Below, in pieces: positions 7,457 to 64,000 of a stretch of DNA of 64,000 bases (positions within the stretch are counted from its first letter, which is position 1; each line of letters opens with the position of its first letter). The notes beneath the pieces were generated by a model, which made no database searches, was not told the origin of the DNA, and saw nothing but the letters and a program-made list of their open reading frames with translations. The translations under genes were made by a program, and so were the position numbers. The stretch is from Sphaerolaimus hirsutus (lineage: Eukaryota > Nematoda > Chromadorea > Monhysterida > Sphaerolaimidae), in the NCBI GenBank assembly GCA_964036195.1, contig OZ038452.1, forward strand, positions 26,733,785 to 26,797,784, read 5' to 3'.

Positions 7457-7985
7457 AATACAATGTGATTGTAGTCGGCAATTAAAAGTGTAGACTAGGC
7501 CAAATTTCAACTCATTCTACTCTTTTAGTTCCAGGGCCCTGGTTGTATCTACATAGGTATTCGTTAGTACAACTTTTATGTCTTTGTACTCGTGTACGCA
7601 TATTTCGCTTAACTGTTTGAAAACTGAGTAAACTTGCTAGAACTATCCAGGTCCATTGATGAATGTTAAGTATTCCCAAGCCTTATATAGTGAGTATATT
7701 CTCTTTGAATATTGCTCTCCAACTATAATTTTTCTTTTTGTATGCAGTAAATGTTTGATATGTGACACAATCTTGTACTGATTAGCGTATTTACATCGCA
7801 CCTGTTACATTGTCATTTATTCTGTTCTGTTTTTTTATGTTGTACCTATGACTTGTAGAGCCAGCCGCGGTATGTGTGTTTAAAAAAAAATTCAAGGAAC
7901 ACACAGCTACAGTTGCCGCATGCATTTACGAATCCGATCACCAACGAACTAGCGGGATTCTCTCAGACCTTCGGTCGGGATTCGA

Positions 7986-10285: not shown

Positions 10286-10991
10286 GTTTATTTTATAGGT
10301 CTGGAAGTGCCCTCCGAACGCATACCGTATTTCATCAAACTGAAGGGTACCTCCAACAGATTGGCAGGTTTTGTCTCTTTTTACATTCACGAGAATAATA
10401 ATTTTATCCACCAATTCTTACAGTTTGATAAGAATTTAGTCTTTCGGTTTCTAACTTTGCACATTCTTGCTGTTTTTTACCGCACAAAATTATTACGAGA
10501 GTGGTATTTTTCTTGAATAATTTCTTTGCAAAACTATCCAAAAGTGACACAAAATTTGCTTTGAAAGTGGGATAAGTATAGGTACCTAATCAAGCCTAGA
10601 TCGATGCTCCAGCCCCGATGTAATTTTGTACTAGTTGCCTAATCTACTTAAAAAAATCTTATTATATTTTTTATTATAAACTTCGGGGGTGGGTGGGGGA
10701 ACCAACCAGCCATGAGGCGTCGCTGCACGGGCGCAGGCTTCTATTTAGTTTGGCAACCTGCCAACCGGCTGGATACTCAGCTGCGCCACGCCGCTGCACT
10801 CATGTCCGCTGTGATACGCGAGCTAATACTCGTCTGCTAGCTTCACAACGCTCCCAATATTATTGTATAGAAATACAGCATTAACGGCCGCTTTTAAGAT
10901 CGATCGAGATGTTTTTTACTGGGATAATAAAACGCGTAAAAATAATAATAATTATACCTGCGTGAGCGCGGAAATAATCATGAGTCACAAT

Positions 10992-11765
10992 TAGCATTGA
11001 AAAAATCTCTGGGAGATTTATATTTAAAAAATCTCAGAAAATCTCAGAAAATATAAGATTTTCTGAGATTTATATTTTTTCATGATTTTCCGGAGAGATT
11101 TAATTATATTTTCTCCTGATTGAGAAAATCTCTCGAAAAAATCTCTCTATATTTGCCCATTTTCACCTTCAAAACCACTAGTTCATGTGCTTTTTACCAA
11201 TTTTCATCTATTTTTAACTACCGTATTTCCTCGTAATACCCCCCTTGAATTAACCCCCCTTCGAAATACCCCCAGGTGTTTTTGAGCTGGGGGAAAAATA
11301 CCCCCCCCCCCCTCGAAATACCCCCGTATTTGATGATGTACATCATGTATGCAATGTACATGCTGTACTCTATGCGGCCAATTTGCATCATAACTACACA
11401 TAGACTAGGATGTGTAGCAATGTACGTTTATATGTCCTAATATATGCCCTTTAGTCACGTTTATTACTAGTTATGGGTACGTAAAAACCCATTCTCTACT
11501 ACCAATGTTTACGAAGATTTCCGGCGATATAATAACCCCCCCCCCTCGAAACCCCCCCCCCTCGAAATACCTTGAAATATCTATTAAATCACACTTTAAG
11601 TTGAAAATTTTATGAGATTTTTTTGAACTGCAAGAGATTTTCTCAGAGATTTAATTATATTTTCCAAAATGACCCAAGATATTTAATTATATTTTTTTCT
11701 TGAGAGATTTTCTGAGATAATACTTAATTATATTTTCTCAAAATCGGTCGTTTTTTTCAATGCTA
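10992..11765. mobile_element. hAT-like non-autonomous transposon (774 bp, TIR TAGCATTG)
   Basis: It starts TAGCATTGAAAAAATC and ends with the inverse, TTTTTTTCAATGCTA. The exact 8-bp duplication GTCACAAT flanks it (10984-10991 and 11766-11773), and the empty site is at about 793-800 in copy A. The termini match the element at 2559-4168, so both belong to one family. Subterminal regions contain many AGATTTTCTGAGATTT words. A C-run element is nested at about 11219-11575. No transposase frame. Confidence 0.88.
11219..11575. mobile_element. C/G-run element nested in the hAT-like element
   Basis: It begins TACCGTATTTCCTCGTAATA and then runs through CCCCCC tracts and 'CTCGAAATACCCCC' words. The internal 'TTTCCGGCGATATAATAACC' resembles the inner part of the other family members. 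The right end is less clear. Confidence 0.5.
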
Positions 11766-11848
11766 GTCACAATTGAAAGGAAATTAGATAGGAGTGCGGG
11801 ACGACGGAAAGGGCCCTAGTGAAATGAAATGGATAGACACTACTAGAT

Positions 11849-12112
11849 GGCGCACCGCACACTGAAATTTTGTGTTCAGCGTTCGAACGTTTTTGCACGC
11901 TGAACTACAAACGCTGAAATCAATATCTAAAGAACACAACATTTTTGAAGCGTAAAAATTCTACTCGCATGTGAATTGCGCGAAATATTGGAAATTCCGA
12001 AATTTTTACGCTTCAAAAACATTGCGTTCTTTAGATTTTGATTTCAGCGTTTGTAGTTCAGCGTGCAAAAACGTTTGAACGCTGAAGGCAAAATTTCAGT
12101 GTGCGGTGTGCC
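11849..12112. mobile_element. foldback MITE with arms of about 115 bp
   Basis: The sequence from GGCGCACCGCACACTG to about 11962 is repeated in inverted orientation from about 11995 to CAGTGTGCGGTGTGC, with a loop of about 30 nt. It is absent from copy A at the equivalent place. No coding capacity. Confidence 0.8.
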
Positions 12113-12188
12113 GATGACATCGCCAATTTGTGTCAAATGAATGTCAACTAAATAACACAAAAAGCTTTTAAAGCATCACACTCAATAG

Positions 12189-13499
12189 TAGTGATGGAAA
12201 AGCGCCATGGCGCTGGCGCCTGGCGCTAGCGCCAAAGCAAAAAGCGCCATGGCGCTTTTGGCGCTTGGCGCCTTTTTGCTGTGGCGCCATTGGCGCTTGG
12301 CGCTGGGGTTTGGAAAAGCGCCATGGCGCTTTTGGCGCTTGGCGCTATGACGCCGTGGCGCCATTGGCGCTTGGCGCTGGTGTTTTAATAAGCGCCAAAA
12401 AAGCGCCAAGAAGTACTGAAAATTCATCATTGTTTTATGCAGAAAGATCTGTTAAGTATAATTTACATAAGTATTTATATGTGCTACTGTCAGACGTCAG
12501 TGTATTCCCAGATCAACATACCCTATTCTTGATTACTTTTTAAACAATTTCCTTCTGATTGCATGGGTATTCAACATTTGTCCCATCTAATCTGAATTAT
12601 GTAAGGCTTTATGTGACTATTCATCGGACCGGTAACACTCTTCACATAGGTTTTAGCTCAATCACTATACTGAGCTCGTTCCTTGCAGTTTTGTTTGAGC
12701 AGGGTCAAAGGACCCTGTAAAGTGTAAAGTTGAGTAATAAACATCATCCAAACTTTCATCAATACTGTTAAGTGTCATGTGAAATGTCAAAAGTTGAATC
12801 AAAAATTTTAATTTTTATTTTGATTGATATTTTACATCACATTTACTTCTTGACATTTGACACTTGATTTTACAGGGTGTGGAATCACTTTCTGAAGCCA
12901 TTCCAACAATGGCAATCCAAAACTTGAAACCTCAAAATCCTGTGTTCAAGCTGGGTCAAATCCTGTGGTCAAAAGTGACTAGCAAAACGTGAAACTGCAA
13001 TATCAAAAGAGAAAAATAGAAAGTATTTCGAAAAAAAATTAAAACGTCATTTGAAAATTTGAAAATTATTTTTTGGGAAAAACAACTGAATTCCAAAAGT
13101 AATTTTAAAAAACACCTAAAAATTTTTAGCACTTTTTACAGATGGTGTGCTATACTTAGCTTAGCCCAAACACCCAGCTGCAAAATATCAAGACAACAAG
13201 AACAATAGTGACTGCAGTTGACATGTATCTTGCGCCAAAAACAAATTACTAGCAGTGCATCAGCATGGCCGCATATATGAGAAGCAAAAAATTTTTGGCG
13301 CTGGCGCTATTGGCGCTTGGCGCCAATATCCTCTGGCGCCATTGGCGCTTGGCGCCGTGGTCTAGAAAAGCGCCATGGCGCTTTTGGCGCTTGGCGCCAT
13401 TTTGCTCTAGCGCCATTGGCGCTTGGCGCTGGGGTTCGGAAAAGCGCCATGGCGCTTTTGGCGCTTGGCGCCAAAGTCCTGGCGCTTTTTCCATCACTA
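12189..13499. mobile_element. hAT-like transposon (1,311 bp, TIR TAGTGATGGAAAA) with GGCGCC minisatellite ends
   Basis: It starts TAGTGATGGAAAAGCGCC and ends with the inverse, GGCGCTTTTTCCATCACTA's shorter form. The exact 8-bp duplication CTCAATAG flanks it (12181-12188 and 13500-13507), and the unoccupied site is present in copy A near 930. Both ends consist of tandem GCGCCATGGCGC / TTGGCGCTTGGCGC units. The middle (12420-13270) has no supported gene and includes a CCCTGTAAAGTG foldback at about 12690-12885. The same family is at 59161-61753, 57281 and 63926. Confidence 0.9.
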
Positions 13500-15136
13500 C
13501 TCAATAGAGTCAATCAAAATCAAGTGTCACGATATTAAATTAACTATGTTCGACCACATAATAAACTTGAAATCACCTAATTAACCACGATTCAGTCGCC
13601 ATTCAGTTGACACGGATTTCGCCGTCAACTAATAATGCGTGCGGGCCTAGCCCAGCCCAAAGCGTTGCGGCGCAAACGGGGCGGGGCGGCGCAGCGCACT
13701 GCACACACACAGAGACGCGTCGATGCGGCGCACTGCATTCGTACTGGACGGCGACGCGTGCGAGCGGCGCGATGCAAATCAGCTAGCAAATAACGAGCCC
13801 CGGCGAGCGGCGGGCCGCCGCCTACGACCGTACGCACAAAACCGCACAGAAAATGGCTTTACGGCTTTCGAAAAAATCAAACGACTGCGCGGCGCGGCAG
13901 AATTTTGAAGAGGAAAAAACACGTGGCGAGCATGTGAGTGATATTTAAGAGGCGAAGCGGCCGCGGCAAGAAGTGGCTATAGGCACAAAGGCACGACGTG
14001 CCGGTTGAATGCGCGCCGCGGGAGTGTGCAGCGGCCGCCGGGGCACATAATAATGCGGGGCGGCAGCTGCAGCCGCGTCTGCTAAACGCCAGTTGCAGGG
14101 CGACCCAGGCGACCGGAGCCGCCGCCGCCGCAGCCCCGGGCGACATTAAGAAGAGGCGCGACTGCGCGACTGCACGACTGGATGACTGCGCGACTGCACG
14201 ACTGCACGACTCGGTTTGACCCGCGATTGCACACGGAGAGCGCACGTGGAAGAATGGAACGAGTGCGGGCTCGTTGCGGCACGGCCACCTGCACGTCGTA
14301 GTGCAGCGTGACAAGGGCGAAGGCTCGAGCGACGCGGCACACTGTATACGAGCTGCGACTGGTGGGCGAGAAAAGCTTCAACCCCCGGCCGCCCGCCGCC
14401 GCGCTCGCACTCGGCTGAACGGTGCTTTGCGACGTCTGGTGCCACTATCAGACCCTGTAAAATGCCCTGTCAAATGTCATGCAAATTGTCAAAATTCATG
14501 GAAAATACCCTGCAAAATGGCAAACGTGTTTGCCATGTTGCAGGGAATTTTCCATGACTTTTGGCAATTTGCATGACATTTTACATTTGACAGGGCATTT
14601 TACAGCGTCTGGAAGTGCCCACTGGCCGAAAGCATGCAAAAATGAACTTATTCGTTCGTATTAGTGTTGCATCAGGCATAGGCACACTACATAAATATAA
14701 TTCTAGCACAATGGTCTAAAAAGTCAAGTTGAAAACTTTCAACGAACTCATAAGGGACGAAAAAGAAAGGACGAAATTCGCTATCTAACAGATTTTCCAA
14801 AAGTGAAACTAGAAAGCCGAAATCATCGCCCTTCATTGGTATATTATTCGAGTATTTTCCGTGACACTGCACTAAAAGTAATTTGCACGGACACGTCTGT
14901 CTGGCTGCAACACATCTCGAAATGTATACATAGCTATGTATTTATTATATCTACACGTACAGACACATGTACCCAAGTGTGCCGCGTATTTGTATGTATA
15001 GAATGCACAGCTACGTATTTTTGTGATATACATAAATTTATGCCGTAGGGTTGACAGCTAAAATATGAGTGTGCGCGATTTGTTCATTTCTATGCGCGCC
15101 CGTGCCAGCTGTGCGGCTATGCGAATGGGATGGAAC

Positions 15137-15831
15137 TAGGGATGGCCCGTGTGTTTTTTAACCGTTTTTTAAATAAAAAAACGTTTTTTTTATTTAAAAA
15201 AACAGAAGCATCGAAACCGTTTTTTTTTTAAAACTGCAGCCAAAATTTTTAGTACTAAGCACTAGGTATTTTGCAATTTTTTTGCGCGCAAGCGCGCAAT
15301 TTCACATGCCCATTACCATTGGTGGTTGTTTTCATTGGTTTTGAGGCATTTTTAGTGTGCAACCTTCCATTTGTTCATGCTATTGTGTCATAATAAGCCG
15401 TGCTATGTTAGTGTAGTATATAATATCCAGCCAATGTGCCCCCATATAGCTGTACAGTGTGATACATCACTGCCAATGTATTTGCCTGCTCTTATAACTT
15501 TATTTAAGCACTTTTCCATGCCCAACTTCACTTGAAATCATGAACATTCGACGAAAGGCAATATACGTAAGAAGTCGACATAAAACGGATATTTTTGACA
15601 TAAATCACCACTTATAATGTTATCCTATGGACCCACAGCCATTCTGTGGCTATATATAACATCACAAAGTACTGCCAGTTGTCTAATGTACCTGTATATG
15701 TTGACCCATAACCATAACTGGGAGCTTTTGTAAAAAAACCGTTTTATTTAATAAAACAACGTTTTTTATTAAAAAACCGTTGTTTTTTAAAAAAACAGGG
15801 TCGTTGAAAAAAAACGTTTTTTCCATCCCTA
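15137..15831. mobile_element. hAT-like MITE (695 bp, TIR TAGGGATGG)
   Basis: It starts TAGGGATGGCCCG and ends CCATCCCTA, with the exact 8-bp duplication GATGGAAC on both sides (15129-15136 and 15832-15839). In copy A the uninterrupted GATGGAACTGTGG is visible just right of 4168. The subterminal regions are T-run/A-run words of the type AAAAAACGTTTTTT. No coding capacity. Confidence 0.88.
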
Positions 15832-18799
15832 GATGGAACTGTGGCTGACTTATCACTGCCGCCCGCATAGGACAACCGGGCGGGCGTGGCGCTGCCCCTG
15901 TAGCGGTGGGCGGCGCGCCTGCCAGTGTGCTGCACGAAACTGGCCTAGCTGCCCGGTGAATCACACTCTGCATGACATTTGACAATTGACCCAGGCATTT
16001 TTACAGGGTCCGGGACTGCCCCCTGGGCGCCCCATCACCCATCCCCATTCTCCGGACGCTCAGATCGATATTGAACCTTACTTAGCGGCACAATTCGGAA
16101 CCTTTATCGAACTTCACAGCAGAGTTGCATTCTGTGGAAAAATGTCCGCATTTGACAGCTGCGCCGCGCTGCGAGAGTGCACGGTGCCGCATATTCAGTT
16201 ACTTCCCAGAAAAGTGCCTCGACTGCAGTTGAGCTAAGGTCGCTTCTGCAGTTGCGAGCTAAATAACGTCTGTTCGCTGGATCCTGACGCATAAAACAGT
16301 GGCCAATGTGAGGCTTATCAGGCCGTAATCAGGCGCCATTCCCAGGGGGCAGTCTCGATGGCTGAAAAGTGTTATGTCAATTGTCAATTGTCAAAATGAA
16401 AAAAGACTATTTTATTACCGAACTTTTGACACTTTGCATGACAATTGACAAATTTGTATGACGTTTTAATTGACATTTGACACTTGACTTTACAGTTTAC
16501 CGGGCACGGGACGGGACTGGCAACAGACTCTGTAAATTGCCAAATGTCGAGATGCGAAGAAAATTAAAAAATCTGCCATTTTACGGTGCATTTTCAATGC
16601 CTTTGCATAAGATATGACATTTTACAGGGCATTTTACAGGGTATGGGGTTACTGCGTGACGTAAAATGCTATCGTAAAATTTACAATCTAAAAATTTGCA
16701 TTTAAAACTAATTACATAACAGTGGATGATGATACATTCAGGTACGGACTTCCAACTTGTCATGAATGAAGTACTAATCAATATCTTGATCGTGTCAAGA
16801 AATCAGCGTGAACGGTTTACTTTTTATTTTTTATTATTAATTATTCTTATTCTTATTATTTTGTCACAATTTTCAAGCATGTAGCTAGGTATAAACTCAT
16901 TCTATGAAATATGCTTTATTAACACAATAACATTATGCAAGGGGTAATAACTTTTTCCTCACTAAACTTGCAGGGGGAATTATTCAAGAGGGGAATTGTT
17001 TTTCCCCACTCAACTTGCAGAGGGAATTATTCAAGCAAATAAGGGAAATACATATTATTTAGGTGCAGCAGTGTGGAGAGCCTGAGTAAATCAAGTTTTC
17101 AAGGTGACGTTTGACTTAGCTACATATTTACAGAGACGATAATGAAATTTTTCAAATTTTGAATAGCAAACGTATAAATCAGCCTCGATAACATTTGAGT
17201 TTACTGGAATGAGTAATTTTTACTCTTCATAAACTGGTAGTCAACGAACACGTAATTCCAGTAAACTTACATGTCATTCAAAGTGGCTTATGAGTTGACC
17301 AAATCTTGAGTTCACCGGCAGTATACTAGCGCGTGCGATGCCAATAGCTGTTTGGTGATTCGTCGGCGCAGTGTGCGCTGCGCAGCAGGTACACACACCG
17401 GCGGCAGACGGCTAAAAAACTACCTAAAACAAAAATAGTGTCATTCGCTCGAGTGGCAACTGTTGCGGGCCGGGTCTCAGCGGCGGCACAGAGCCGCGCT
17501 GCGAGTGACGGGCGGCAGCGGCAGTCGCGTCGCGCTGCACGGCCGCGCCGCGCGGCTCAGCGCACTCCGGCGACGCGGCTAGCTAGCCGAGCCCCATTGT
17601 CGAGCCGAATGCGAAATGCCCTCGCATGAGCGCTTCGATTTCCACGCGCCCGATACTATTTGCCTACTTATATTTATGTGGGTACATTGAAAACGGATTT
17701 CCACGCATTTGCGGATGAAAGTCGACGCGGCGCGCGAAAATTATCCGAGCAGCGACATTAAGAAGAAAACGTGTTATTTGCGTTCAATCAAACTAGCGCC
17801 GCGTGTGGGGGCCCGGCGGCGGCGGCCGGGCGGCGTGCAGCGGCCGGGGGGGGGGGCACGCAGTGCGATGCAATGCAGCGGCGGCCGCGCGCCCCGTGGC
17901 TAAAAGTAGGCGGAATGCCGTCGCGGCGGCGCTGAAACGCGCCCGCGCGCATGCGCTGCTTACACACGGCCGCGCCGCGCGCCCAGTCTATACGTTCCAT
18001 GCGTTGCCCGCACTGCACTGCTTATTTATTGAAGGCGGTGCGCCGCGCTCGGGTTGAACTGTATACGGGCATCCCCCCCCCCGCTGCGAGCGCTGGCCGC
18101 CACGCGGACCGGAGTGTACTCGATGGACTCGACACTGTGCACTCGGGCTTAGTTAGGTCTCAAGTTGGAAGCGTGCCAATGGGAACTAACTCATGCGATT
18201 TTTGTAAAACGATGAACAAATTCATTGTTGTGAAATCCTCAACGTATAACTTTGTAACAGAAACGGATTAGTTCAATCTTTTAAAAAATTGCATGAATCG
18301 AGTCAGATGGTTGGCACATTGCCAGCCAAACCACTAGTGCCAGGCGTGAAGTCACCGGAGTATAGTAGCTGGCCCGGCAGTCGGCGGCGGTCACGCTGCG
18401 GCTCCCTGGGGCGGCACCCGAGCGCCCCACCGCGCGCACGCGACCACTCCCCCGCGCCGCGCGGCACACTTTTAAGTAGTTCGAGAGAAAGCGGCTTCTT
18501 GTGCACTAGAATGAAAATAATAGATGATGATCCAAACTTTGAGTAATTTGGACAGGGGGACTGGCACATGCGCGATGTGTGGACGAAAAATGGACGGAGC
18601 TGAAAAACCGGCTGGTACGTAAAACGTAGAGCGGGAGCGTGTAGCACGGCTACATATTTAACATATTTCTAACATCAAGTTGACGTGTCATTTCATGTAG
18701 TCAGCGTAATCGTTTAATGGCACAATCGACATATTGCACCGCGTCGCATTCCGGGAATTTGCATTTGGAATACCTATTTTTGCTGTCTTTTTGTTCAAT

Positions 18800-18906
18800 G
18801 GCTCCGCGCACACTAGATTACGGCCGATATTTCGGAAACTCAAATGTGCCTAAAACAGATTTATCAGTTCCCAAAATTTTGTCTGTAAACTAGTGTGTAT
18901 AGCCAC
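18800..18906. mobile_element. Harbinger-type MITE (107 bp), copy B
   Basis: It is the duplicate of 7350-7456, with AAT flanks (18797-18799 and 18907-18909). Its left TIR reads GGCTCCGCGCACACTAGATT, closer to the right TIR than copy A is. Confidence 0.75.
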
Positions 18907-19040
18907 AATACAATGTGATTGTAGTCGGCAATTAAAAGTGTAGACTAGGCCACATTTCAACTCTTTCTACTCTTTTAGTTCCAGGGCCGTAGGTAAATAT
19001 ATGTTAGTACAACTTTTATGTCTTTGTACCTCGTGTACGC

Positions 19041-30486: not shown

Positions 30487-32978
30487 TCAGCAGTCAGCGG
30501 GATTCACCCACGGAACACGACCGGCGTCCGTCATCATCCACTGCTTGATTGCATCCCTGATGGGGCGCGCATCTCTTTCGTCAACGTCCCTTCGGATTGG
30601 CACGTTATCGATCGTATCCATGTTGTCGTACACTGGTCGCCACTGCAGCTGTGTATGGGAATGAATTTATGTGATGTTGAATTGTAACAGTGAATATGCA
30701 AGGTAAACTTACATTTCCCTCAACAGTGTCGTTCGGGTCATCTTGTGGTTTTTCATCGCCATTTTCATCAAATTGGTTGGCAGCACTTTCCCCGCAGATA
30801 TCACGCAGCCAATTGTGCAGGTGGCAACAGGCCATAACCAGTCTTTGTACGCGTGGCGGTTCCATCGCGATACAGGTCATCAGTATGCGCCATCTGCCAG
30901 CCAAAATACCAAAGACGCATTCAACAGTGCGCCTAGCTCGGGATAAGCTGCAGTAGTTGCAGTCAAATTTAGATTTCAGTTTTACCAAAACAACGCTTCT
31001 TTCACAATATTCAAACACACCGATAGTTGAAGTGTCGCTGGCTGTCATCTGCATGCAGCGCATATGGCACCATACACCACTTGCGCAACGGGAACGCTTG
31101 ATCACCCACAAAATAACTCGGAATGGTATTTGCAGGTTGGTTGGCATCTGCACCGGGCAGCAAGCACGGTGGTGCCATAAGCATTCTGCCATGTCTGTGT
31201 AAATGTATCACTTTTATCATGTGTAAATGTATAGCACCTCATTGGAACATGTCAAAAAGGATGTAAACTCACATCAAATCCTGCCCGAAATCAGACGTGA
31301 TCAGCACAGCACCATCTGCTTGTGACCCCGGCATACCGATGTCCACGTACTGAATTTTCAAATCTGCGCTGGCGCTGATGAACAGTATAATCGACGAGAA
31401 GCCCTTGTAGCACCAGTATCTCGTTCCACCCTCTGCAAGGCGTTTTTCATTTACTTTTGTAACTGTAAACATTTCCACCTCACTGCACAGTTTCCCATCA
31501 CTGTGAATTTAGTCATTTTTCTACAGTCGCCAGACCGTCGCCAGACCGTCGCCATTTCGTCGCGCAATTTGGCCCTTTTTTAAAAAAAATCATAACTTTT
31601 TTTTGGATAACTTTTATGAGAAGCCAGGTACGTCAGAAGAAGCGCAATTTTTTTCTCTACAAGTACATCCAAAAATCATTTGCACAACATTCCCATGACC
31701 CAAATGAAGTTACTTTCAAATCCGTGGGGGTTGCGGTTAAACTCAAGCAAAAGCGACGATTTTGCGACGTTTGCGACGCAAAATGCGACGAAAAGCGACG
31801 TTTTCACAAAAAAATTTGCAACCTTGGTAAACTGGCGACTATTTCTGATTGAAGGCGACGCACGCGTCACAAGCGTCGCAAGCATCGCAAATGCGACGCT
31901 TAGTTTACCGTGACGTTGCATACGACTGACCATGTTTATGTTTACTGGAAACAACACACATGAGGGCAAAAGTAGAATGCGTAAAATGATATGTACTTAC
32001 CAGCGGGTTTGCGAATACGGATGTGTTTGCCATCCAGACTCCCCACACAGTTCGGCATCTGCCACAGTTTCCAGTATTGCTGCGCGAAATCTTTCATTTG
32101 CCCTAAATCACTCCCCATAGGTTTCAAGTGGTCCTTCAAAACTTTCACTATTCCGGTGGACACTTCGTCAATAATCGTTCTAATCGTAGCGCCGGAAATC
32201 TGTAAATGTTTTTCCAAAATACAATGAACTATAAAGCAATCTAAAAGCATGAAAAATGGTATCACCTGTGACTGGCCGGCACAATCTTCAACTTCCCGGC
32301 CGTTTGCGCATGTATACAGAAAGTAAAACAGTCGCATTTCTGTTGTCACTACAGCGATGTGTCTTCTTTCATCTCGTGTTCTCAGGTACTGTTCACCAGT
32401 TTCAGGGTCGACAGCTGTAAGCATCGCGTGCAGCTGTTTGAATTCAGTTGGCCACAGCTGTAATTAATTTGTAATCATTGTGAACGTTATCGGTAAACTG
32501 AGTTCATTCATACATATCAGTTTACTGTTCGATTGCAATGTTGTTGTAAACAATAACATGAAAATGTCACAACACAGTAAGTGATGTTATATACGTCTGT
32601 ATATTTTACGTAAATAACAGAAATTGTGAAACAACGAACCCTGCACAGTTTGTAAAACCATGCTGGATCGGTGTTCTTGCAGGCAATAACAGCTCGCCAG
32701 TAATTGCCCCTGGAGCGCGCCCTTTCTAGTAAATACGGTGTCATGTACTTTTTCCTGCCCTGATCACCCTGTTCTTGCGCGGCATTCTGCTGTTCCTGCT
32801 CTTGTTCTTCGTCGTCTTTGTCCACATCATACAAAAACAACGTGTTCCCGACTGCCAAAAAAGCGGCTAATATTTGTCTCTTCTGATTGTGCGTTAGTGG
32901 CGCAGTTCCATCCAAATTCCACTCTAGCGCTTCGTTCATTCTTTGCATTTGTCCCAAAACGGATTCATCGTGCGCCAT
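30487..32978 (-). CDS. PIF/Harbinger-type DDE transposase (seven exons, intact)
   Basis: complement(join(30487-30648, 30713-30947, 31021-31194, 31273-31462, 32001-32199, 32266-32457, 32640-32978)), 1,491 nt, 496 aa. Every intron is GT-AG and the frame closes exactly. Family hallmarks appear in order: MPNCVGSLDGKHIRIRKP (first catalytic Asp), YVDIGMPGSQADGAV (second Asp region), IPSYFVGDQAFPLRKW, LSRARRTVECVFGILAGRWR (catalytic Glu) and a C-terminal VPWVNPADC like the usual VPW ending. The N-terminal 200 residues are acidic and helical, with a Q/E-rich stretch. Such transposases cut and paste elements with 3-bp target duplications, usually together with a second DNA-binding protein. There are no stops or frameshifts, so it could be active. 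The intron between exons 3 and 4 is unusually long and full of GCGACG words. It is divergently arranged with the 31-exon gene at 33232. Confidence 0.92.
31500..31925. repeat. cluster of GCGACG/CGTCGC words in a transposase intron
   Basis: About a dozen GCGACG or CGTCGC hexamers are packed into 420 bp (for example ACCGTCGCCAGACCGTCGCC near 31530, TTTTGCGACGTTTGCGACGC near 31760 and ACGCACGCGTCACAAGCGTC near 31860). The same word family recurs next to the right end of the large element (46360-46600). It may be an inserted repeat or a set of binding sites. Confidence 0.6.
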
Positions 32979-51344: not shown

Positions 51345-51950
51345 TGTTATGCCATCATATTGTAGGCATTTGTTTTTCCTATTTACATTCATTGTCTTAC
51401 TGTAGTGTTTTTGAATGCAACATGTAAGTGTTTGCCTGCGAGTAGATCCCCCCCATGCGCCGCTCTATACTTTCCATGCGCCCTAGGTATTTGTGTATGC
51501 ACTATGTACTCGCGCCGCGGAACGGTTGTGTCGCGGCGGTTTTTAGGTGTTCCGTTTTTCGTGTCTATGTATTCATGTATGCATTGGGTACTTGGCGCCG
51601 CGTAGTAGACTGTTTGGCGCCATTCCATTGTGACATTTTTGTGTAGGTGCCCCCCCTATCTTATGCATATCCAGCCGATATTTTCAATCGACTGGCAGTC
51701 AATGTTTTCGCTATTTCCGCGTGAATATTTTCTCTTTTTTCCCGACCTATTTTTATTAAGTATTCCACCCAATTTCTACTATCATTATGAACCGATTTAG
51801 CTAAATAAACAGCACCGGTTCTGAAATTGGACCCTGGAATTCATTTTGGCACTTGCTCGCACACTTTCAAACAGTGTAATTAGGGCCGCCGTCTAATAAA
51901 CCAACCCCCACCAAGCAATCTTCAATGACCGCAAGTACGCGGCCATTACA
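51345..51950 (+). repeat. 5' LTR (606 bp)
   Basis: It begins TG and ends CA, and is preceded by the target duplication GCGA. It contains GGCGCC-rich and CGCGCCGCGGAACGG sequence in the middle. The promoter should lie here, but I do not assign a TATA box. Confidence 0.92.
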
Positions 51951-51968
51951 TGGTGACTGTACTGGGAG
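51951..51968 (+). other. primer-binding-site position
   Basis: TGGTGACTGTACTGGGAG starts at the first base after the 5' LTR. The TGG matches the universal CCA end of tRNAs. The rest does not resemble a tRNA that I recognise, so the primer is not identified. Confidence 0.5.
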
Positions 51969-52744
51969 CTATTAATTTAGCTCCCATAAATCGACCCCGG
52001 GCCTCCAGTTCGCCCGTCTGTGCGGAAAAAATTCCGCCACGTTTTCGTGCCGCGGAACTTTAGCGACACGCGTCGCTCCCGCCCGGCCGGCCGCTTATCA
52101 GCCACTGGGGCTGCGCGGCCAGCTTTGATCAGCCACTGGGGCTGATCGAAATCGTTTTTTTCGTGTCGCTTTGCCACTGGGGCTAGCGACATAGCGGCAA
52201 CGCTTCGCGCCGCTTTTCAATCCGATCAGCCACTGGGGCTGACCGGAATTCATCGATTTTCGCGTCGCTTTGCCACTGGGGCTAGCGACATAGCGGCGCA
52301 GCTTCGCGCCGCTTTATCGACTCGCTGCTGCCGACCGCTCATCAGCCACTGGGGCTGCACGGCTGGCCGACGACTTGCTTCAATCAGCCACTGGGGCTGA
52401 TCGAAATCGTTTTTTGAGTCGCTTTGCCACTGGGGCTAGCGACATAGTGGCGCAGCTTCACGCCGCTTTTTTTGACTCGATCAGCCACTGGGGCTGATCG
52501 AACCCAACTGGTTTTGCTGTCGCTGTGCCACTGGGGCCAGCGATTGTCCAGCTCGGTGCCGCGCCACACGTTTACCCAATCAGCCACTGGGGCTGACTGG
52601 GAACCGTCCGCTTTCCGCTGAGCCACTGGGGCCAGCGGATTTGGCTGCTGGGGTTGTGCAGACTTTTTCCTGCTGCATGACGCAGTCACTGTGAGGTGCT
52701 GCACCCACACACGGTCACAAGGCGCCACTGGGGTGCCATTTGTG
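51964..52744 (+). promoter_or_regulatory. leader array of RNA hairpins with an invariant CCACTGGGG tip
   Basis: CCACTGGGG occurs exactly 13 times, starting at 52102, 52133, 52174, 52230, 52273, 52346, 52388, 52427, 52485, 52528, 52584, 52623 and 52725. Each copy is flanked by complementary arms. Two stem types alternate. Type I ends in TCAG/CTGA (for example CGATCAG/CTGATCG at 52478-52500, or CCCAATCAG/CTGACTGGG with one mismatch at 52575-52601). Type II ends in CGCT/AGCG (GTCGCT/AGCGAC near 52165, 52264 and 52418; TCCGCTG/CAGCGGA at 52614-52639). Between them a third hairpin, AGCGGC/GCCGCT, recurs (52193-52214 and later). The inner CC/GG of the tip may also pair, leaving ACTGG. Ordinary hairpins precede the array, for example GGGAGCTA/TAGCTCCC at 51964-51985. 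The array ends about 190 nt before the Gag start. The likely role is protein binding, such as Gag recognition for packaging. Confidence 0.85.
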
Positions 52745-52934
52745 CAGGGTGCCGCGCAGTGTGGAATTTTGGCGCAGTGCCAATTGCTGCACGTGCTTGT
52801 ATTCACTTCTATCCTGGGTCATTTTTGGCACCTACCTGCTATTTTGCAACTCCAGTTGTGTTCAGTCACTCCTGCACTATCTTCGCACATGAATTGTGCC
52901 TGTGCAGATTTAGTGACTTCTCACATTTTCCAAC

Positions 52935-54743
52935 ATGTCGCAATATACGCGAGCGGAACTGGAGCCGGTAGTTGAATCATGGATGGACGAGCCCGTGGAC
53001 CGGCCAAAATTGTTGCGCCTACTAAATGTGCTAATGCAGTTTCGCGTTAATGATGGCGAGTGGCCCACGATTAGCGATCCACCCCGCCTAGGAACTGGGC
53101 GATTGATCCAGCATGTGTGGAAGTGCATGGACCTGTATTTCACAGATCCAGATACTGTCGTGGAATTGGTCCTCGACCTTGAAGATCAAGTACCGCCCAG
53201 AGGCATTGGGAACGACCCCATGCCGCCTCAAGGCGTTGCGGTCTCCCAACCACCTGTGGCGCTGACTGTGAACAACCTTTTGCCTGTTCTCCAGCAACTG
53301 CTATCTAGCAATCCGGCATTTGTCCAACAATTTACTTCATCATCAGTGCAGGCGCACACGGCACCAGTGCAAAACATGCCCATGGGGACGCAATCGATAC
53401 TGGCGCCTGGCACAATCAATCGCTGTCCATCGAGGACCTCTTCCGCTTCTACGGACCAGTTGGTCGATTCAACCGAAGCTAGGCTGCAGGCCATTTCATT
53501 GTTACCTGGTGGTTTGATCGGTCAAATCGCTGCCTACATTGACCAATATGTCATGGTACCGGCCGACGGTTTTCTGTCCCTCGTGGATACGCTGGGGCAA
53601 TTGTCGTCTGGCGATCACATGGGCGGTGGCCATGTGGCCAACGTAGCCAGCAAGCAAACACCGTTCAATGGGGATTCGAGCGCGCCGTCGGGGCCATTTA
53701 AATTTTGGCTTCACAATGTGGCGCTACAGGCTCTGAACGTCCCGCCGGCATACCAACACTTGTTTTGGACTAATGTGTTCCAACAGTGCCTGAAAGGTAG
53801 TGCCCAGGATCACTATGCATCTATCCGCCTGGACAAGCGTAATTCAATTCTCTACGTTCTGGACAAGTTGGCGCGTGTGCATCGTCTCGACCGCAAGGCG
53901 CATTCGGTAGCTGAGTGGTATAGAATTTCTGCTAAATCCTCTGATACGGTGTCTTCCCTGTACCGCAAGCTGTGCAGCTCGTTCCACTATATCAGCGAGC
54001 AAATCGACGATTCACAACGCGAGAAAATGATCGGGGATAAATTATTCCTTGAAGTCGAAGACATGGTGCCAACGATGTGTTGGTATCGGTGGCGCGACAA
54101 ATGGCGGGACGGTGAGATTGAGTTAGCCGATGCTGTTAGTCGCCTCGATATTGCCCGCAAGGAAAACTTGCATCGCCGTGTTGAACAGAATAAAAATCGC
54201 AATACTAATTGGAAGCCAAAGTCGTCAACGGGCAGAAATGCTGGCTGGGGCAATATTCCGTCAGCTGAAGCTGCGTCCCAAAGCGCCCCAGGCCGATCTG
54301 ATGGCCAGAAAGGTGGTTGGGATAGGCAGTCTAAATTTGACCCAACGACACATCAGGGTCCATGGTGCACCTACTTTTTGCATCGGGCACCCATGCCGCA
54401 CGAGCCGGCAAAATGTTATTTGAATCCGGCGTCACCTGCCTACCAACTAGATCGGGCTGAACGGGCCCGAGAATTTTTGGAAAAGGCTGGCAAAACCAAG
54501 CACGACGCTCGGGAAAGGATGCGCACTGAGTGTAAAAAGCTCAACCTGAAATTTGATGAGCAAATTTGCAGCGCTCCGGAATCGGATAATGAAGCTGCTA
54601 ATAATCCGGCTACAAAATTGACTAAAAATGTGTCTAATCCATCATCTGATTCCGAGCCCGAGCCCGATTTTGAGACGTGGTTCCCTAGCGGCTATGCAGC
54701 TCACAAGCAGATGGGTTGCGCCATGAACTCACCAAGCATGTGA
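52935..54743 (+). CDS. gag: Gag polyprotein of the LTR retrotransposon (602 aa)
   Basis: This is a structural protein that would form the particle around the element's RNA. Residues 240-410 resemble a Ty3-type capsid: TPFNG, then FKFWLHNVALQAL, LFWTNVFQQCLKGSAQDHY and a helical continuation. Residues 410-465 are basic and rich in N, W and G (nucleocapsid-like). A single C-x4-H-x5-H-x4-C unit follows (WCTYFLHRAPMPHEPAKC, residues 477-494), a variant of the usual zinc knuckle. A charged helix and an acidic tail end at a UGA. The start ATG at 52935 has a good context and lies about 190 nt after the hairpin array. The frame is uninterrupted. The protease frame continues in the same reading frame after the UGA. 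Confidence 0.88.
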   Translation: MSQYTRAELEPVVESWMDEPVDRPKLLRLLNVLMQFRVNDGEWPTISDPPRLGTGRLIQHVWKCMDLYFTDPDTVVELVLDLEDQVPPRGIGNDPMPPQGVAVSQPPVALTVNNLLPVLQQLLSSNPAFVQQFTSSSVQAHTAPVQNMPMGTQSILAPGTINRCPSRTSSASTDQLVDSTEARLQAISLLPGGLIGQIAAYIDQYVMVPADGFLSLVDTLGQLSSGDHMGGGHVANVASKQTPFNGDSSAPSGPFKFWLHNVALQALNVPPAYQHLFWTNVFQQCLKGSAQDHYASIRLDKRNSILYVLDKLARVHRLDRKAHSVAEWYRISAKSSDTVSSLYRKLCSSFHYISEQIDDSQREKMIGDKLFLEVEDMVPTMCWYRWRDKWRDGEIELADAVSRLDIARKENLHRRVEQNKNRNTNWKPKSSTGRNAGWGNIPSAEAASQSAPGRSDGQKGGWDRQSKFDPTTHQGPWCTYFLHRAPMPHEPAKCYLNPASPAYQLDRAERAREFLEKAGKTKHDARERMRTECKKLNLKFDEQICSAPESDNEAANNPATKLTKNVSNPSSDSEPEPDFETWFPSGYAAHKQMGCAMNSPSM

Positions 54744-55541
54744 CACGCCCGCTGTGATCGCCCGCTGGCCAAGGTGGATTTCATGGGCTGCACGCTCACA
54801 GGCACACTCGATAGTGGCTGTGAGGAGGGGATCATCATCGAGGAGCATTTGCTCGAGGATGTATGGAAACACGCACAGTGCAATGCCAGCACAGAAAAGG
54901 CAAGGTACCGGCCATACCCTGATTCAGGTTTGGGGACTGCTGGCGAGCCAATTCCGGGACATCACCTGGCACTCTACAAAATGCATTTGCTGCATACCAC
55001 ACCCGGTGGACAACAGCAATCGGCAGACATCTGGGCTGTGGTTAAACGGAAACCACACTTCCCGCGCACATCGAGCCCGCTTTTATTTGGCCACAAGGCA
55101 CTCTATGGCACACTCAAAATGAATCGCACTGCCATTTCCGAGCTTCAGCGACTTGAGGCCAATTTCGTGCCTAAAGCCATGGGCAAATCGATTCACACCT
55201 GCCAGCCCCTGACTAAAGGGGAAATGCTAACACCATCGGTGGTCACTATGCTACCACACGATTTAGCACCAACTGTGGGCCATCCAAAATCACACTTATC
55301 GAAGCCCGTTACACTATTGCGTGCCAACTGCACCAAGGTCTACGGCAGACCCCCACGGAAAAAGTCTGACACCAAATATTTTTACAACTCTGCCAAATAC
55401 ATGCCACCACATGCCGAGTTCATGTCGGTGGACGTTGCAAAATTCGATGGCCAACCGGTGGCCAACTATCGGGGCGAGCCAAGCATGCGTCGCAAGCACA
55501 AAGCCAGGCTCAGTTCCAGCGCCCGATGGAATCCAGGCTGA
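54744..55541 (+). CDS. pro: retropepsin-like aspartic protease, in frame behind the Gag stop
   Basis: It shares the Gag reading frame and is separated from it only by the UGA at 54741-54743. Its own first ATG is at 54774, giving 255 aa. Near the start GTLDSGCEEGIIIEEHL carries the D-S-G catalytic triad of retroviral-type proteases. About 90 residues on, SPLLFGHKAL fits the conserved hydrophobic-G strand of that fold. The remaining 150 residues have no reverse transcriptase, RNase H or integrase motif and I do not recognise them. Expression would need read-through of the UGA (next base C), reinitiation at 54774, or an unrelated stop-to-sense ancestor. It would act by dimerising and cutting Gag. 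Confidence 0.75.
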   Translation, partial: HARCDRPLAKVDFMGCTLTGTLDSGCEEGIIIEEHLLEDVWKHAQCNASTEKARYRPYPDSGLGTAGEPIPGHHLALYKMHLLHTTPGGQQQSADIWAVVKRKPHFPRTSSPLLFGHKALYGTLKMNRTAISELQRLEANFVPKAMGKSIHTCQPLTKGEMLTPSVVTMLPHDLAPTVGHPKSHLSKPVTLLRANCTKVYGRPPRKKSDTKYFYNSAKYMPPHAEFMSVDVAKFDGQPVANYRGEPSMRRKHKARLSSSARWNPG

Positions 55542-55795
55542 GCAGTGCTAGCATGATTTTAGGGCATAGATTTGTGCGCTGTGAAAATGCACCCTTGTTT
55601 TTATAATTATACTGCAATCTGATCCATTTGTGATTCTGGACATGTTTTTCAGTTACTGGTCATATTATATTTGGGTAACTTGAAAATTCCACTTAGTTCA
55701 ATGTGGTTGCAAGTTTTTGTAGCTTTTTATGTAAGCTTTTGTTTGACTTCCAGTTCCACTAGTGTTTCTTTTGTAGGTAGTGTAACTGTTGTCAT

Positions 55796-55804
55796 GGGAG
55801 GGGC
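55796..55804 (+). other. polypurine tract of the LTR retrotransposon
   Basis: GGGAGGGGC directly abuts the 3' LTR, as expected for the plus-strand primer. Confidence 0.85.
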
Positions 55805-56410
55805 TGTTATGCCATCATATTGTAGGCATTTGTTTTTCCTATTTACATTCATTGTCTTACTGTAGTGTTTTTGAATGCAACATGTAAGTGTTTGCCTGCG
55901 AGTAGATCCCCCCCATGCGCCGCTCTATACTTTCCATGCGCCCTAGGTATTTGTGTATGCACTATGTACTCGCGCCGCGGAACGGTTGTGTCGCTGCGGT
56001 TTTTAGGTGTTCCGTTTTTCGTGTCTATGTATTCATGTATGCATTGGGTACTTGGCGCCGCGTAGTAGACTGTTTGGCGCCATTCCATTGTGACATTTTT
56101 GTGTAGGTGCCCCCCCTATCTTATGCATATCCAGCCGATATTTTCAATCGACTGGCAGTCAATGTTTTCGCTATTTCCGCGTGAATATTTTCTCTTTTTT
56201 CCCGACCTATTTTTATTAAGTATTCCACCCAATTTCTACTATCATTATGAACCGATTTAGCTAAATAAACAGCACCGGTTCTGAAATTGGACCCTGGAAT
56301 TCATTTTGGCACTTGCTCGCACACTTTCAAACAGTGTAATTAGGGCCGCCGTCTAATAAACCAACCCCCACCAAGCAATCTTCAATGACCGCAAGTACGC
56401 GGCCATTACA
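55805..56410 (+). repeat. 3' LTR (606 bp)
   Basis: It matches the 5' LTR at all but one position that I can see, and is followed by the target duplication GCGA. Confidence 0.92.
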
Positions 56411-57280: not shown

Positions 57281-57508
57281 TAGTGATGTAAAAGCGCCAT
57301 GGCGCTGGCGCCTGGCGCTAGCGCCAAACCAAAAAGCGCCATGGCGCTTTTGGCGCTTGGCGCGTTTTTGCCGTGGCGCCATTGGCGCTTGGCGCCAAGA
57401 CCTTCAATAGCGCCATGGCGCTTTTGGCGCTTGGCGCTATAATTCCGTGGCGCCATTGGCGCTTTGGCGCTAACACTTTAAAAAGCGCCAGAAAAGCGCC
57501 ATACCATC
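57281..57508. mobile_element. one end of a TAGTGATGG hAT-like element
   Basis: It starts TAGTGATGTAAAAGCGCC and consists of GCGCCATGGCGC and TTGGCGCTTGGCGC units. No matching right end follows, so it is a truncated copy. Confidence 0.65.
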
Positions 57509-59160: not shown

Positions 59161-61753
59161 TAGTGATGGAAAAGCGCCATGGCGCTTTTGGCGCCTGGCA
59201 CTAGCACCAAAGCAAAAAGCGCCATGGCGCTTTTGGCACTTGGCGCTAAAATGCTCTGGCACCATTGGCGCTTGGCGCCGGCATCTAAGAAAGCTCCATG
59301 GTGCTTTTGGTGCTTGGCGCCATTTTCTGGTGGCGCTATTGGCGCCTGGCGCCAGCATTTAAAATGGTGTGTTGACCGTAGTGGAATGGATGGATAGAGA
59401 ATACAGAGAAATAACAATTAGGAGTAATTTGTCCATATTTATTTCATGCACTGTGTAATTTATCTGCACAAACTATTTCTATTCATGCACTATATTATTT
59501 TACCACAACTAATCTTCAGTTTTCATACACTATATTATTTCTCCATGGAAAATATTTGAGTAAGAAAGTGTCTTATAAGTTATTGTAGGATTATTGAGAA
59601 TATTCAGGTTAAAAGGTCAATTATGTTATAATTAGGTTTATGGATATAAAATTAGGCTCATTCGACTCGCCATAATTTTCTGGTTATTATTATGTATATA
59701 CATTTGTATGGTTTACATGTAAAATGGAAGCATCAAACCTTGTTATAATATATTTTCTTTACTTTACTTTACATACCTTCTTTGAACGAGTGTCCTAATA
59801 GAGAAATGGTGCCCTGCATATTTGACTAGCATATACTTTACATAGCCCTTGGCATAGACATATTCAATGAACTTTGCAATACTCTATTCACATATATATT
59901 TGACATGTTTTATATATGGAATCTCATGCCAATTTCAACTATGACATTCATTTACCTCATTAAACCCCAATTTGCTCAACTATCAAATACACATTTTTAT
60001 GAAGTGATTATTATACTTAATTCATACCCTGCTCTGCTTATATTTAGGAACAGTTTACAACACTATTTACAGTTTCCAACTCTATCAAATTAGTTTCCAA
60101 ACTGTGTCAATGTTTTCTGACAAATTGGAATAGATTAGTAACTCGCCTGAGTTTGCCAACTTAGCGCCCCACAAGATAAATTGTTTCTTTCTCGCCCAAT
60201 TTGTACTCTGTATTTCTTTACCATACTTGTTTGAATGTGTACGCGTGCTGCATAAGCCAACAGTTTAGGCTAAATGTATCCTATTTGTGCATTGTATTTA
60301 GGAAATTATTGTAGCCAAGTTTTCTATACTAATTTCCGTGTTTCTGCAACTTTGGAAGCTTTTACTTCAGTCTTTTGACCCCGAGTTTGGAATAAATAAG
60401 TTCACAATAGAAACTTTGACTAGGAAGCTTGCTAACTTTGCGCTTTTGTATTTCATGCTGCATCTGATTGACAATAAAGTACCTGAAACAACTTTGAACA
60501 CCTCTTTCAACACACAACAACAAAATAAACATAATTGGCTGCCGGCAAGTGAACATTTGGCTACAAGGAAAATCCAACCACTCTCAAGACCGTCACTCAA
60601 TACGGTCTTGGAGTTACAGCATCGGTGGCAGAGGTTGCTAACTTCAGTGGCTTCATCACAAAATGGCCAAAAAAGTGCCAGCCATGATTATACAAAATTC
60701 AATAATGCAGATAAATCAACAATCTAATTCATGAATTTTCAAGAAAACGGAATTAATTTTGCTGAATTATGGTATACTCAACATAATTTCATATATAGGC
60801 GAGCAATTCCCCAGGAATGTTTTTTGTCAGATGTTTCTGAGGTGGGGGCTATTCAAGGGGGAATACACCATATATGAAATATGAAACACATCCAGGGGGC
60901 AACATGAAAAATACTGAGGGGTGGTCCCAAACCCTGTAAAGTATAATGTAAAGTGTCCACTGTCATGCAAAGTGTCAAATATAAAGTAAAGGGTCAATTG
61001 AGTATTCAAATCTTTTTTTCTGTATCCAAATAATAATTCCTGTATATGGAAAATAAGATTTGGATACAAAAGTAAGATTTTGATACACAGTTGAGACTTG
61101 ACTTTACATTTGACTTTACATCTGATACTTTTCATGACAATTGACACTTTACCTTGCATTAGACTGATTTTACATTTGACACTTTACTTAACAAAGCTTG
61201 GGACTGCCACCAGGTCTGAGTCAGCTGGGGAAATAATACCCTCTGGAAATACCCCCACCCAAAATGAGTGTAAAGAGGATGTAAATTAACTGTATTTTGT
61301 GATCTGTGTTATGCAGAACACATGTAAAAAAATGACTGAGTTACATTAGGACAAGGATTATTATGCGATCTATATTTTATATGTATTTGGACACTTATCT
61401 TTACATTATGGTTATCATCTGAGTCAGGGGTATCCAGGATTTTGTTCCTCTCAGGGGTTCGGTAGATAGCACATCACTCCTCCCAGGGATTGATAGCTGA
61501 AAATACTGTTTGGGACATTGTGCCACATAATAAAACCACATTTTGACTTTGGCGCTGGCGCCATTGGCGCTTGGCGCCATACCCTCCTGGCGCCATTGGC
61601 GCTTGGCGCCGTGATCCAGAAAAGCGCCATGGCACATTTGGCACTTGGCACTAAAACGCTCTGGCTCCATTGGTGCTTGGCGCCATGGTTAGGAAAAGCA
61701 CCATGGCGCTTTTGGCGCTTGGCGCTTAAAACCTGGCACTTTTTCCATCACTA
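59161..61753. mobile_element. hAT-like transposon (2,593 bp, TIR TAGTGATGGAAAA) with GGCGCC minisatellite ends
   Basis: TAGTGATGGAAAAGCGCC on the left, TTTTTCCATCACTA on the right, and the exact 8-bp duplication GGCACATG (59153-59160 and 61754-61761). Minisatellite units lie at 59175-59360 and 61550-61740. The middle is AT-rich. One 129-codon plus-strand frame (60338-60727) has no recognisable motif and is not called a gene. A CCCTGTAAAGTA foldback is nested at about 60926-61210. Confidence 0.9.
60926..61210. mobile_element. foldback MITE of the CCCTGTAAA family nested in the hAT-like element
   Basis: AACCCTGTAAAGTATAATG on the left and degenerate inverse words on the right (TTGACACTTTACTTAACAAA), with ATAAGATTTGGATAC inverse pairs in the middle, as in 58457-58813. 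Confidence 0.55.
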
Positions 61754-64000
61754 GGCACATGGTTTCTGCATGGTACTTTTACAAAGTGCAGAAAACTTTT
61801 AACCTACATGTTTCATTGTCAAAATTGAAACAGCTACTCAATTGAGCCCTCAATAAATTCCACTTTGAATACCCCCACCCCCACTTGAAAAACTGAACAT
61901 TGAATAACCTCCCTCAAATAACTCCTCTATAAAGTTGGCCTTGAATAATGCCCCTTGAATAAATCCATCCCTTAGATAAAATAGTTCACATTGAATAATT
62001 GCCACTTTGAATACCCAACCCCCTTCCAAAAACTGAACCTTGAATAACACCCCTTTGAATAAATCTCTCCTCATTGAGTAATTCCTTGCTTGAGTAAGAT
62101 GTGATTGAGATTGATTGGTCTTTGGTTGTTTTTTGTGTGCACGATTCCTGCGTGGTACTTGCAGACAGTGCAAAGAAGTTGTAACTTACATCTCTCTTTG
62201 CCAAAATTGATAGAGCTACTGTATTTACTCCATTGTTTCCCTCTCTAACTCCCCCCTGTTAGCTGAGTGTAGAAAAAATAAAAAATACCCACTCCCTCTA
62301 AAAAAACCCCACTCCCTGATAGAACTCGTCTCCGATTGATGTCTATGAAAACATTTATGGAAAAAAATATGTTATGTTTGTTTTCTTTTTAGTCATATAT
62401 TCTTTTGTCAGTATTATGGGGCTATTTACAGCAGCCCTTATGAGGGGACGGTCCCAGGTGGAAAATAATTGTTTTCAAAAGTCAATAATTTGTGTGTATG
62501 GCTTGTATGCATATTAATTATGTTTATCATCACAAAATTTGCATTTGCAAAATTTCTTCAAGATGGTTACATGCGCTGATGTAACATCGTTGGGAGGGTG
62601 TATAGAAATTTTTCAATTTGTCTCAATTTTTGTGTGTTTACTTTGATTTGTCTCAATGTGCTTACTTATTCATTTAGTGAGTACGCATGCCAAATTTCAG
62701 CTCAGAGCAGTTAGCGGTTCTTATTTTTTAATGCTTTTATTTTTATCAACCACTGTATTTTTGTATAGTGAATGAAATCCCACATGGGACCGGTCCCTGG
62801 TGACAACAGAAAGTTCCCCGACGCAGTCCAAACATCCCTGGTGAGAAATTTTTTTCATAAACAAATAATTTTGGTCCCTCATAAGTACCACACATTTTTG
62901 TGTGGCACTATGACCGAATGGACTGTGTAAGGGACCAAAATTATTTGTTTATGAAACAAATTTCTCACCAGGGATGTTTGGACTGCGTCTGGGACCTTTC
63001 TGTTCTCACCAGGGACCAGTCCCCAGTGGGATTTTGTTCGCTATACAAAAATACAGTGATTGACAAAAATAAAAAATTTTTAAAATAAGAACCGCTAACT
63101 GCTCTGAGCTGAAGTTTGGCATGCGTACTCAGTAAATGAAGGAGTAAACACATGCCAAAATTGAGACAAATCAAAAAAATTCTATTCACACTCCCAAAGA
63201 ATATGCGTCAGCGCGTGTAACCATCTCGACCGGTCCCTTATAAGGGCTGCTGTAAATAGCCCCATAATACTGACAAAAGAATATATGACTAAAAAGAAAA
63301 CAAACATAACATATTTTTTTCCATGAATGTTTTCATAGACATCAATCAGAGGTGAGTTTTATCAGGGAGTGGGTATTTTTAGAGGGAGCGGGTATTTTTT
63401 CTTTTTTCTACACTTAGCTAACAGGGGGAATTAGAGAGGAAAACAATGGAGTAAATACAGTAGCTCTATCAATTTTTGCAAAGAGAGATGTAAGTTACAA
63501 CTTCTTTGCACTGTCTGCAAGTACCATGCAGGAATTGTGCACAAAATAAACCAACCAAGGACTAATCAATCTCAATCACATCTTACTCAAGCAAGGAATT
63601 ACTCTATGAGGCAAGATTTATTCAAGGGGTGTTATTCAAGGCTCAGTTTTTTGAAGGGGGTGGGGGTATTCAAAGTGGGAATTATTCAATTTGAACTATT
63701 TTATCTAAGGGATAGATTTATTCAAGGGGCATTATTCAAGGCCAACTTTATAGAGGAGTTATTTGAGGGAGGTTATTCAATGTTCAGTTTTTCAGGTGGG
63801 GGTGGGGGTATTCAAAGTGGAATTTATTGAGGGCTCAATTGAGTAGCTGTTTCAATTTTGACAATGAAACATGTAGGTTAAAGTTTTCTGCACTTTGTAA
63901 AAGTACCATGCAGAAACCATGTGCCTAGTGATGGAAAAAGCGCCAGGTTTTAAGCGCCAAGCGCCAAAAGCACCATGGCGCTTTTCCTGACCATGGCGCC
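61680..64000. repeat. large palindrome (arms over 1 kb), right arm cut by the window end
   Basis: Sequence from about 61680 to 62879 reappears inverted from about 62931 to 64000. Examples are GGCTATTTACAGCAGCCC at 62420 with its inverse ending 63261, GTGCACGATTCCTGCGTGGT near 62139 with its inverse near 63541, and the hAT end at 61753 with its inverse at 63926. The right arm lacks about 110 bp present in the left. The tip contains CCACACATTTTTGTGTGG. The hAT target duplication GGCACATG is also mirrored (63918-63925), so the inversion happened after that insertion. Confidence 0.88.
63926..64000. mobile_element. inverted copy of the TAGTGATGG hAT-like element end, running off the window
   Basis: TAGTGATGGAAAAAGCGCC followed by minisatellite units mirrors 61680-61753. 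It is preceded by CATGTGCC, the inverse of the duplication GGCACATG. Confidence 0.85.

Follow-up and report, generated by a model that had tools for sequence, protein, structure and literature searches.

Thirteen hairpins with one invariant ACTGG loop in the leader of an LTR retrotransposon: a possible protein-binding RNA array

The untranslated leader of an LTR retrotransposon in the analyzed window, a 64-kb stretch of DNA, contains 13 copies of the 9-mer CCACTGGGG, all on the + strand and within 632 nt (52102-52733), each at the tip of a hairpin whose arms vary from copy to copy. The leader of an element with gag and without a polymerase thus shows the same loop many times over on differing stems, which we read most readily as a multivalent handle for a protein. 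Our tentative interpretation is that the genomic RNA of a non-autonomous LTR element carries the array as a multivalent platform for protein binding, with Gag as its likeliest reader. To our knowledge, the way in which the RNA of LTR retrotransposons, above all of non-autonomous ones, is chosen for packaging is poorly known. With a natural array of one loop on many stems, both the recognition of the loop and the contribution of avidity would become open to direct tests, and a true protein handle of this kind would give a new RNA-protein tether.

The element occupies positions 51345-56410 and has the hallmarks of an LTR retroelement. It is bounded by paired 606-bp LTRs (51345..51950 and 55805..56410, + strand) with TG...CA ends, the 5' copy running from TGTTATGCC to CATTACA, and a GCGA target-site repeat lies on the outer side of each. 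A primer-binding-site-like 18-mer starting with TGG, TGGTGACTGTACTGGGAG (51951..51968, + strand), adjoins the 5' LTR, and a purine-rich tract, ATGGGAGGGGC (55794..55804, + strand), lies directly 5' of the 3' LTR. A search for tRNAs in the 64-kb window, from which a primer for the 18-mer might have been named, gave none. The LTRs differ at only one of 606 positions; thus, the parent copy was recently mobile, and the element is a young insertion.

Two long open frames are present on the + strand of the element, and only two. The upstream one (52935..54743) encodes a gag-like protein of 602 aa, named by its position and by a C-x4-H-x5-H-x4-C motif recognized by eye. The TGA at 54741-54743 ends it, and a protease-like frame (54744..55541, + strand) runs on in the same phase, with an LDSG motif that appears retropepsin-like by eye, followed by a tail. 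In the one copy seen, this TGA would suit a stop that is regularly read through as well as a mutational one. Neither product reached the cut-off of any Pfam family, and neither had homologues at E 0.001 (7999 candidates scored for the gag-like protein and 246 for the protease-like frame). The gag-like protein matched nothing in viral contigs; among PDB sequences it gave three weak matches, all to beta-lactamases (E 0.41 or worse), and the protease-like frame gave none. A single-sequence structure prediction for a 258-aa Gag segment was set aside at a mean pLDDT of 40.7.

Autonomous LTR retrotransposons are defined by gag and pol, the latter with PR, RT, RH, and IN. On the + strand of this element we saw no open frame that would encode reverse transcriptase or integrase, and the space from 55541 to the 3' LTR is 263 bp. 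We therefore call the element non-autonomous and expect this copy to need the enzymes of a different element. The TR-GAG non-autonomous elements of plants are defined by LTRs and a gag domain and by the lack of pol (RT/IN). Our element resembles them in its LTRs and in a frame that is gag-like by position and motif, and differs in the protease-like frame that follows.

The hairpin array proper (52092..52744, + strand) lies between the 5' LTR with its primer-binding-site-like 18-mer and the gag-like frame, and consists of 13 GCC-ACTGG-GGC units on complementary arms. Both the copy number, 13 exact CCACTGGGG in about 630 nt, and the leader position had been claimed in a preliminary description of this DNA, and both are confirmed. 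In 100 shuffles of the window the 9-mer occurred 0.33 times on average and three times at most. A fourteenth exact copy lies outside the array, on the - strand at 63021; within the element, the exact tip is confined to the leader and is absent from the LTRs and ORFs. The longer form GCCACTGGGGC is exact in 12 of the 13 copies, the thirteenth ending in T. The tips were first located as exact matches, and a search of the array allowing two mismatches revealed no further, decayed copies.

The preliminary description spoke of an invariant 9-nt tip. The invariance holds, but the unpaired part is only five letters long, since the flanking CC and GG pair together; the tip is thus an ACTGG pentaloop closed by GCC/GGC. 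This three-pair base is found in 12 of the 13 copies, and the last copy has, by eye, a G-U at the third pair. Loop-loop kissing was considered and rejected, as ACTGG is, by eye, not self-complementary.

The stems fall into several classes. Five type I hairpins (52124-52150, 52221-52247, 52379-52405, 52476-52502, and 52575-52601, + strand) have an 11-pair stem around GATCAGCC/GGCTGATC. Five type II hairpins (52164-52191, 52263-52290, 52417-52444, 52518-52545, and 52613-52640, + strand) have the stem GTCGCT-TT-GCC/GGC-T-AGCGAC or its G-C-closed form. By eye, a further class (III) is represented by copies 1 and 6, which have asymmetric internal loops, and copy 13 is a separate form. A G+C-rich hairpin that lacks the tip (g) follows a type II hairpin at 52292..52313 (+ strand), and similar ones can be seen by eye downstream of 52191 and of 52444, so that tip-less hairpins follow three type II copies. 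Read by eye, the order is III, I, II, g, I, II, g, III, I, II, g, I, II', I, II', last. As the preliminary description had suggested, the two main stem types alternate within a higher-order unit: the array consists of type I plus type II dyads that are repeated in tandem and have diverged, with a super-unit of 244-255 nt. Because it is a tandem repeat, its 13 copies are paralogues and not independent.

Complementary arms, also proposed earlier, can indeed be drawn on all 13 tips. With the ACTGG loop forced, the hairpins have energies of -12.4 to -20.1 kcal/mol (mean -16.2), against a mean of -6.1 kcal/mol for shuffled flanks, 4.7% of which reach the weakest real hairpin. At random positions of the leader, some of which overlap real stems, the flanks match the pairing of the weakest real hairpin in 10.5% of cases, a rate that counts against hairpin specificity. 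The arms match their own partners: no permutation of arms among all 13 copies was as good in 100,000 trials, and within types 2 of 120 (type I) and 4 of 120 (type II) were, the real order included. Local folding leaves the entire ACTGG unpaired with a mean probability of 0.91, 0.87, and 0.78 at spans of 40, 60, and 120; for 5-mers across the leader, the corresponding values are 0.147, 0.129, and 0.110. When all 665 nt are folded freely, the copies also pair among themselves. Perfect hairpins of at least seven pairs number five in the array, versus six per 665 nt where the window is otherwise richest in them; some of these hairpin-dense stretches hold other palindromic repeats of the genome.

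The loops are conserved amid diverged surroundings. In the five aligned dyads, which cover 10 of the 13 tips, the tip columns are identical in 180 of 180 comparisons, while the other columns agree in 511 and differ in 318 of 829, with 106 gap cells. Some of the stem changes are compensated. The replacement of a U-U opposition by a G-C pair, noted earlier for type II, is seen in two of its five copies, and the reported switching of type I outer pairs is present as TA/CG and GC/AT exchanges. In total, double changes affect three type I and two type II pairs, located within the outer stem halves; one type II pair is GC in three copies, GU in one, and UA in one. The covariation score is 0.255 for type I, reached by 5 of 500 shuffles, and 0.173 for type II, reached by 46 of 500; the count of double-change pairs is matched in 33 of 500 and 94 of 500 shuffles, respectively. 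These compensating changes amount to only about five or six, all of them among paralogous repeats of one element copy.

The strand on which the structure would act is less clearly marked. Structure between the primer-binding site and gag is expected of a psi-like packaging signal, and the 665-nt array folds with a z of -8.9 on the + strand, but with -10.3 on the - strand (20 shuffles each). Summed over the 13 hairpins, the energies are -210.2 kcal/mol (+) versus -209.3 kcal/mol (-), the + strand being better in 8 of 13. The ten type I and II stems have, on the + strand, two G-U versus five A-C oppositions; one of the latter belongs to a type II stem, where it occupies the outermost column. The preliminary description had taken the covarying arms as a mark of selection on RNA structure. 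With the strands folding equally and A-C exceeding G-U, the strand-specific part of that claim is unsupported.

A strand bias is seen in the start-codon content of the leader (51951-52934, about 979 nt). It contains 2 ATG against 13.0 expected, and none of 2000 shuffles was as low, a significance that is overstated because the test counts repeated units as independent; the reverse word CAT occurs 11 times against 18.4 expected, with a fraction of 0.0055 as low. A Markov estimate gives 2 versus 12.9 for ATG, the most depleted of the 64 trinucleotides, and 11 versus 18.7 for the reverse word; by the same estimate, ATG ranks fifth in depletion in the array alone and third in the remaining leader. 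ATG is not depleted in the LTR (14 versus 11.8) and little depleted in gag (38 versus 45.6). A leader that is poor in ATG on the + strand, and less so on the reverse, fits an mRNA leader scanned by ribosomes.

We infer three things from these patterns: that the array acts as RNA, that a protein reads its loops, and that this protein is Gag. Each short hairpin would present one ACTGG pentaloop, and the protein would read the loop while tolerating many different stems, the repetition of loops providing avidity. The likeliest protein may be the element's own Gag, acting through its C-x4-H-x5-H-x4-C segment. Its docking would cause the RNA of the element to be chosen for packaging, reverse transcriptase and integrase being supplied by another element. 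Gag is the first candidate since the element keeps the gag frame open and since the array is positioned as in known packaging signals. A more doubtful extension is that the 13-fold loop array marks the RNA, that avidity and not a single complex fold selects the genome, and that the polymerase-less element thereby out-competes its helper.

Two known systems resemble parts of this scheme. The coat-protein hairpins of RNA phages use a fixed loop on a replaceable stem as a protein handle, and they are not known to form a tandem array in a leader such as we see here; the likeness implies no claim of homology. Retroviral psi signals consist of a few unlike stem-loops, whereas our array sets the same loop on 13 stems that vary. 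In MMTV and FIV, according to excerpts of the respective papers (PMC8096270, PMC10726167), psi is a structured leader upstream of gag that is read by Gag. The array shares the position 5' of gag, and its reading by Gag is putative.

Counted in favor of the platform are the invariant tips amid diverged units, the absence of decayed tips, the open loops, the pairing of each tip's own arms, the double changes, the confinement of the exact tip to the leader within the element, the recent mobility of the parent copy, and the depletion of ATG. Counted against it are the equal folding of both strands, the excess of A-C over G-U, the small number of compensations, the type II covariation score reached by 46 of 500 shuffles, the pairing between copies, the lower loop openness at span 120, the other hairpin-rich stretches, the random leader flanks that pair equally well, the depletion of CAT as well, the fifth rank of ATG in the array alone, and the lack of homologues for Gag. 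The same invariant tips, open loops, and own-arm pairing would equally suit a host RNA-binding protein, the second candidate reader after Gag, which would bind the ACTGG loops and control translation, stability, or export of the element RNA; the ATG-poor leader, implying a translated mRNA, also agrees with it. The only known loop-binder compared, Smaug/Vts1, has a recognition element that is similarly a small hairpin loop with CTGG. According to PMC4053848, CNGG is required to begin the loop at its 5' end, and in ACTGG an A precedes CTGG; this candidate was rejected. No Rfam family reached its gathering score either, and we regard a host reader as unlikely. Far less probable is the internal ribosome entry proposed in the preliminary description, or a ribosome shunt. 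A strongly folded leader of about 979 nt is what such a device might use, but depletion of ATG is what scanning selects for, which argues against internal entry as a first choice and leaves that option unsupported. Moreover, single hairpins of -12 to -20 kcal/mol are, from general knowledge, no large barrier for scanning ribosomes.

The remaining explanations place the origin of the array in DNA. It could be a mutational product without function, that is, tandem-duplicated palindromic DNA whose arms were matched by palindrome-templated correction or by strand switching of reverse transcriptase. The array is visibly a tandem repeat, other palindromic repeats of the GCGCCATGGCGC families are present in the window, and G-U is not in excess over A-C; however, such an origin leaves unexplained both the identical loops in 13 of 13 copies amid diverged units and the depletion of ATG, and we consider it less probable than a host reader. 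If the array is nevertheless a DNA-level product, it shows that palindromic arrays are able to mimic covariation. Still lower in our ranking is a DNA-level protein-binding array, an enhancer or insulator, in which the arms either arise incidentally or are there for a protein that binds dyads. Its model is the Drosophila gypsy element, whose 5' UTR has 12 Su(Hw) sites (PMC2374998). Both position and copy number recall our array, since a short motif recurs roughly twelve times in the 5' untranslated region of either element (12 in gypsy and 13 here), and the equal folding of both strands accords with a DNA-level array. On the other hand, a duplex site needs no complementary, covarying arms around an asymmetric core. 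The gypsy motifs are sites of a zinc-finger protein with short AT-rich spacers, whereas here the motif is a hairpin loop whose arms differ yet pair.

Comparison with RNA families and with the literature yielded no direct counterpart. Rfam gave zero matches over the window at gathering score; with E up to 1, the LTR plus leader had one weak match, on the - strand, to RRE (13.4 bits versus a cut-off of 104). Among the listed matches of a limited open-access literature, judged by titles and the beginnings of abstracts, nothing resembled hairpin or stem-loop arrays in LTR elements, and the listed matches to the CCACTGGGG 9-mer concerned, by title, unrelated subjects.

Spaced pairs of GCCACTGGGGC do occur in other sequences, in 20 stretches of viral contigs and 86 of prokaryote contigs. 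In 83 of these 106 loci the near spacings, counted by eye, are all multiples of three, and under a strict rule an open collagen-like Gly-X-Y frame spans the pair in 32 and does not in 73, while in one locus no pair was close enough to be scored. A Kineosporiaceae MAG is represented by eleven listed contigs (L034, L035, L037, L040, L054, L076, L077, L081, L087, L088, and L099) in which the tip copies are clustered and do not keep codon phase; in ten of the eleven they belong to another kind of repeat, of the type GGCCACTGGGGCACCC. A blastn comparison of the leader and element body with the 106 loci found no match at E 0.001; among the best 12 listed, the top one had E 0.004 (L058, 52 nt, 81%) and the next 0.055. 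The type I core is absent from the viral contigs, and the type II core occurs there in one stretch (L107). In our judgement, formed on some of the 106 loci, they are probably unrelated to the array.

The window as a whole looks eukaryotic, with LTR elements and few long ORFs, only four stop-to-stop frames being at least 220 aa in 64 kb. One ORF (30605-31204, - strand) resembles a DDE_Tnp_4 transposase (E 8.7e-08). A transposase-like ORF of the window had no relatives at E 0.001 among 14 candidates. Interspersed hairpin-rich palindromic repeats based on GCGCCATGGCGC / TTTTGGCGC occupy 12168-13499, 57281-57480, 59164-59347, and 61495-61760. The blocks 190-7551 and 10371-19001 are duplicated about 10.2-12.6 kb apart, with 91-99% identity in the pieces listed, and a long inverted repeat (61679-64000) is made of pieces of 82-240 nt with 90-97% complementarity. 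Within the element, the primer-binding-site-like 18-mer has ACTGGG (51961-51966) in common with the hairpin tips; a match of this length arises in 7535 of 200,000 shuffled 18-mers. A minor possibility raised by this overlap is that the loops might make contact with the primer tRNA as well.
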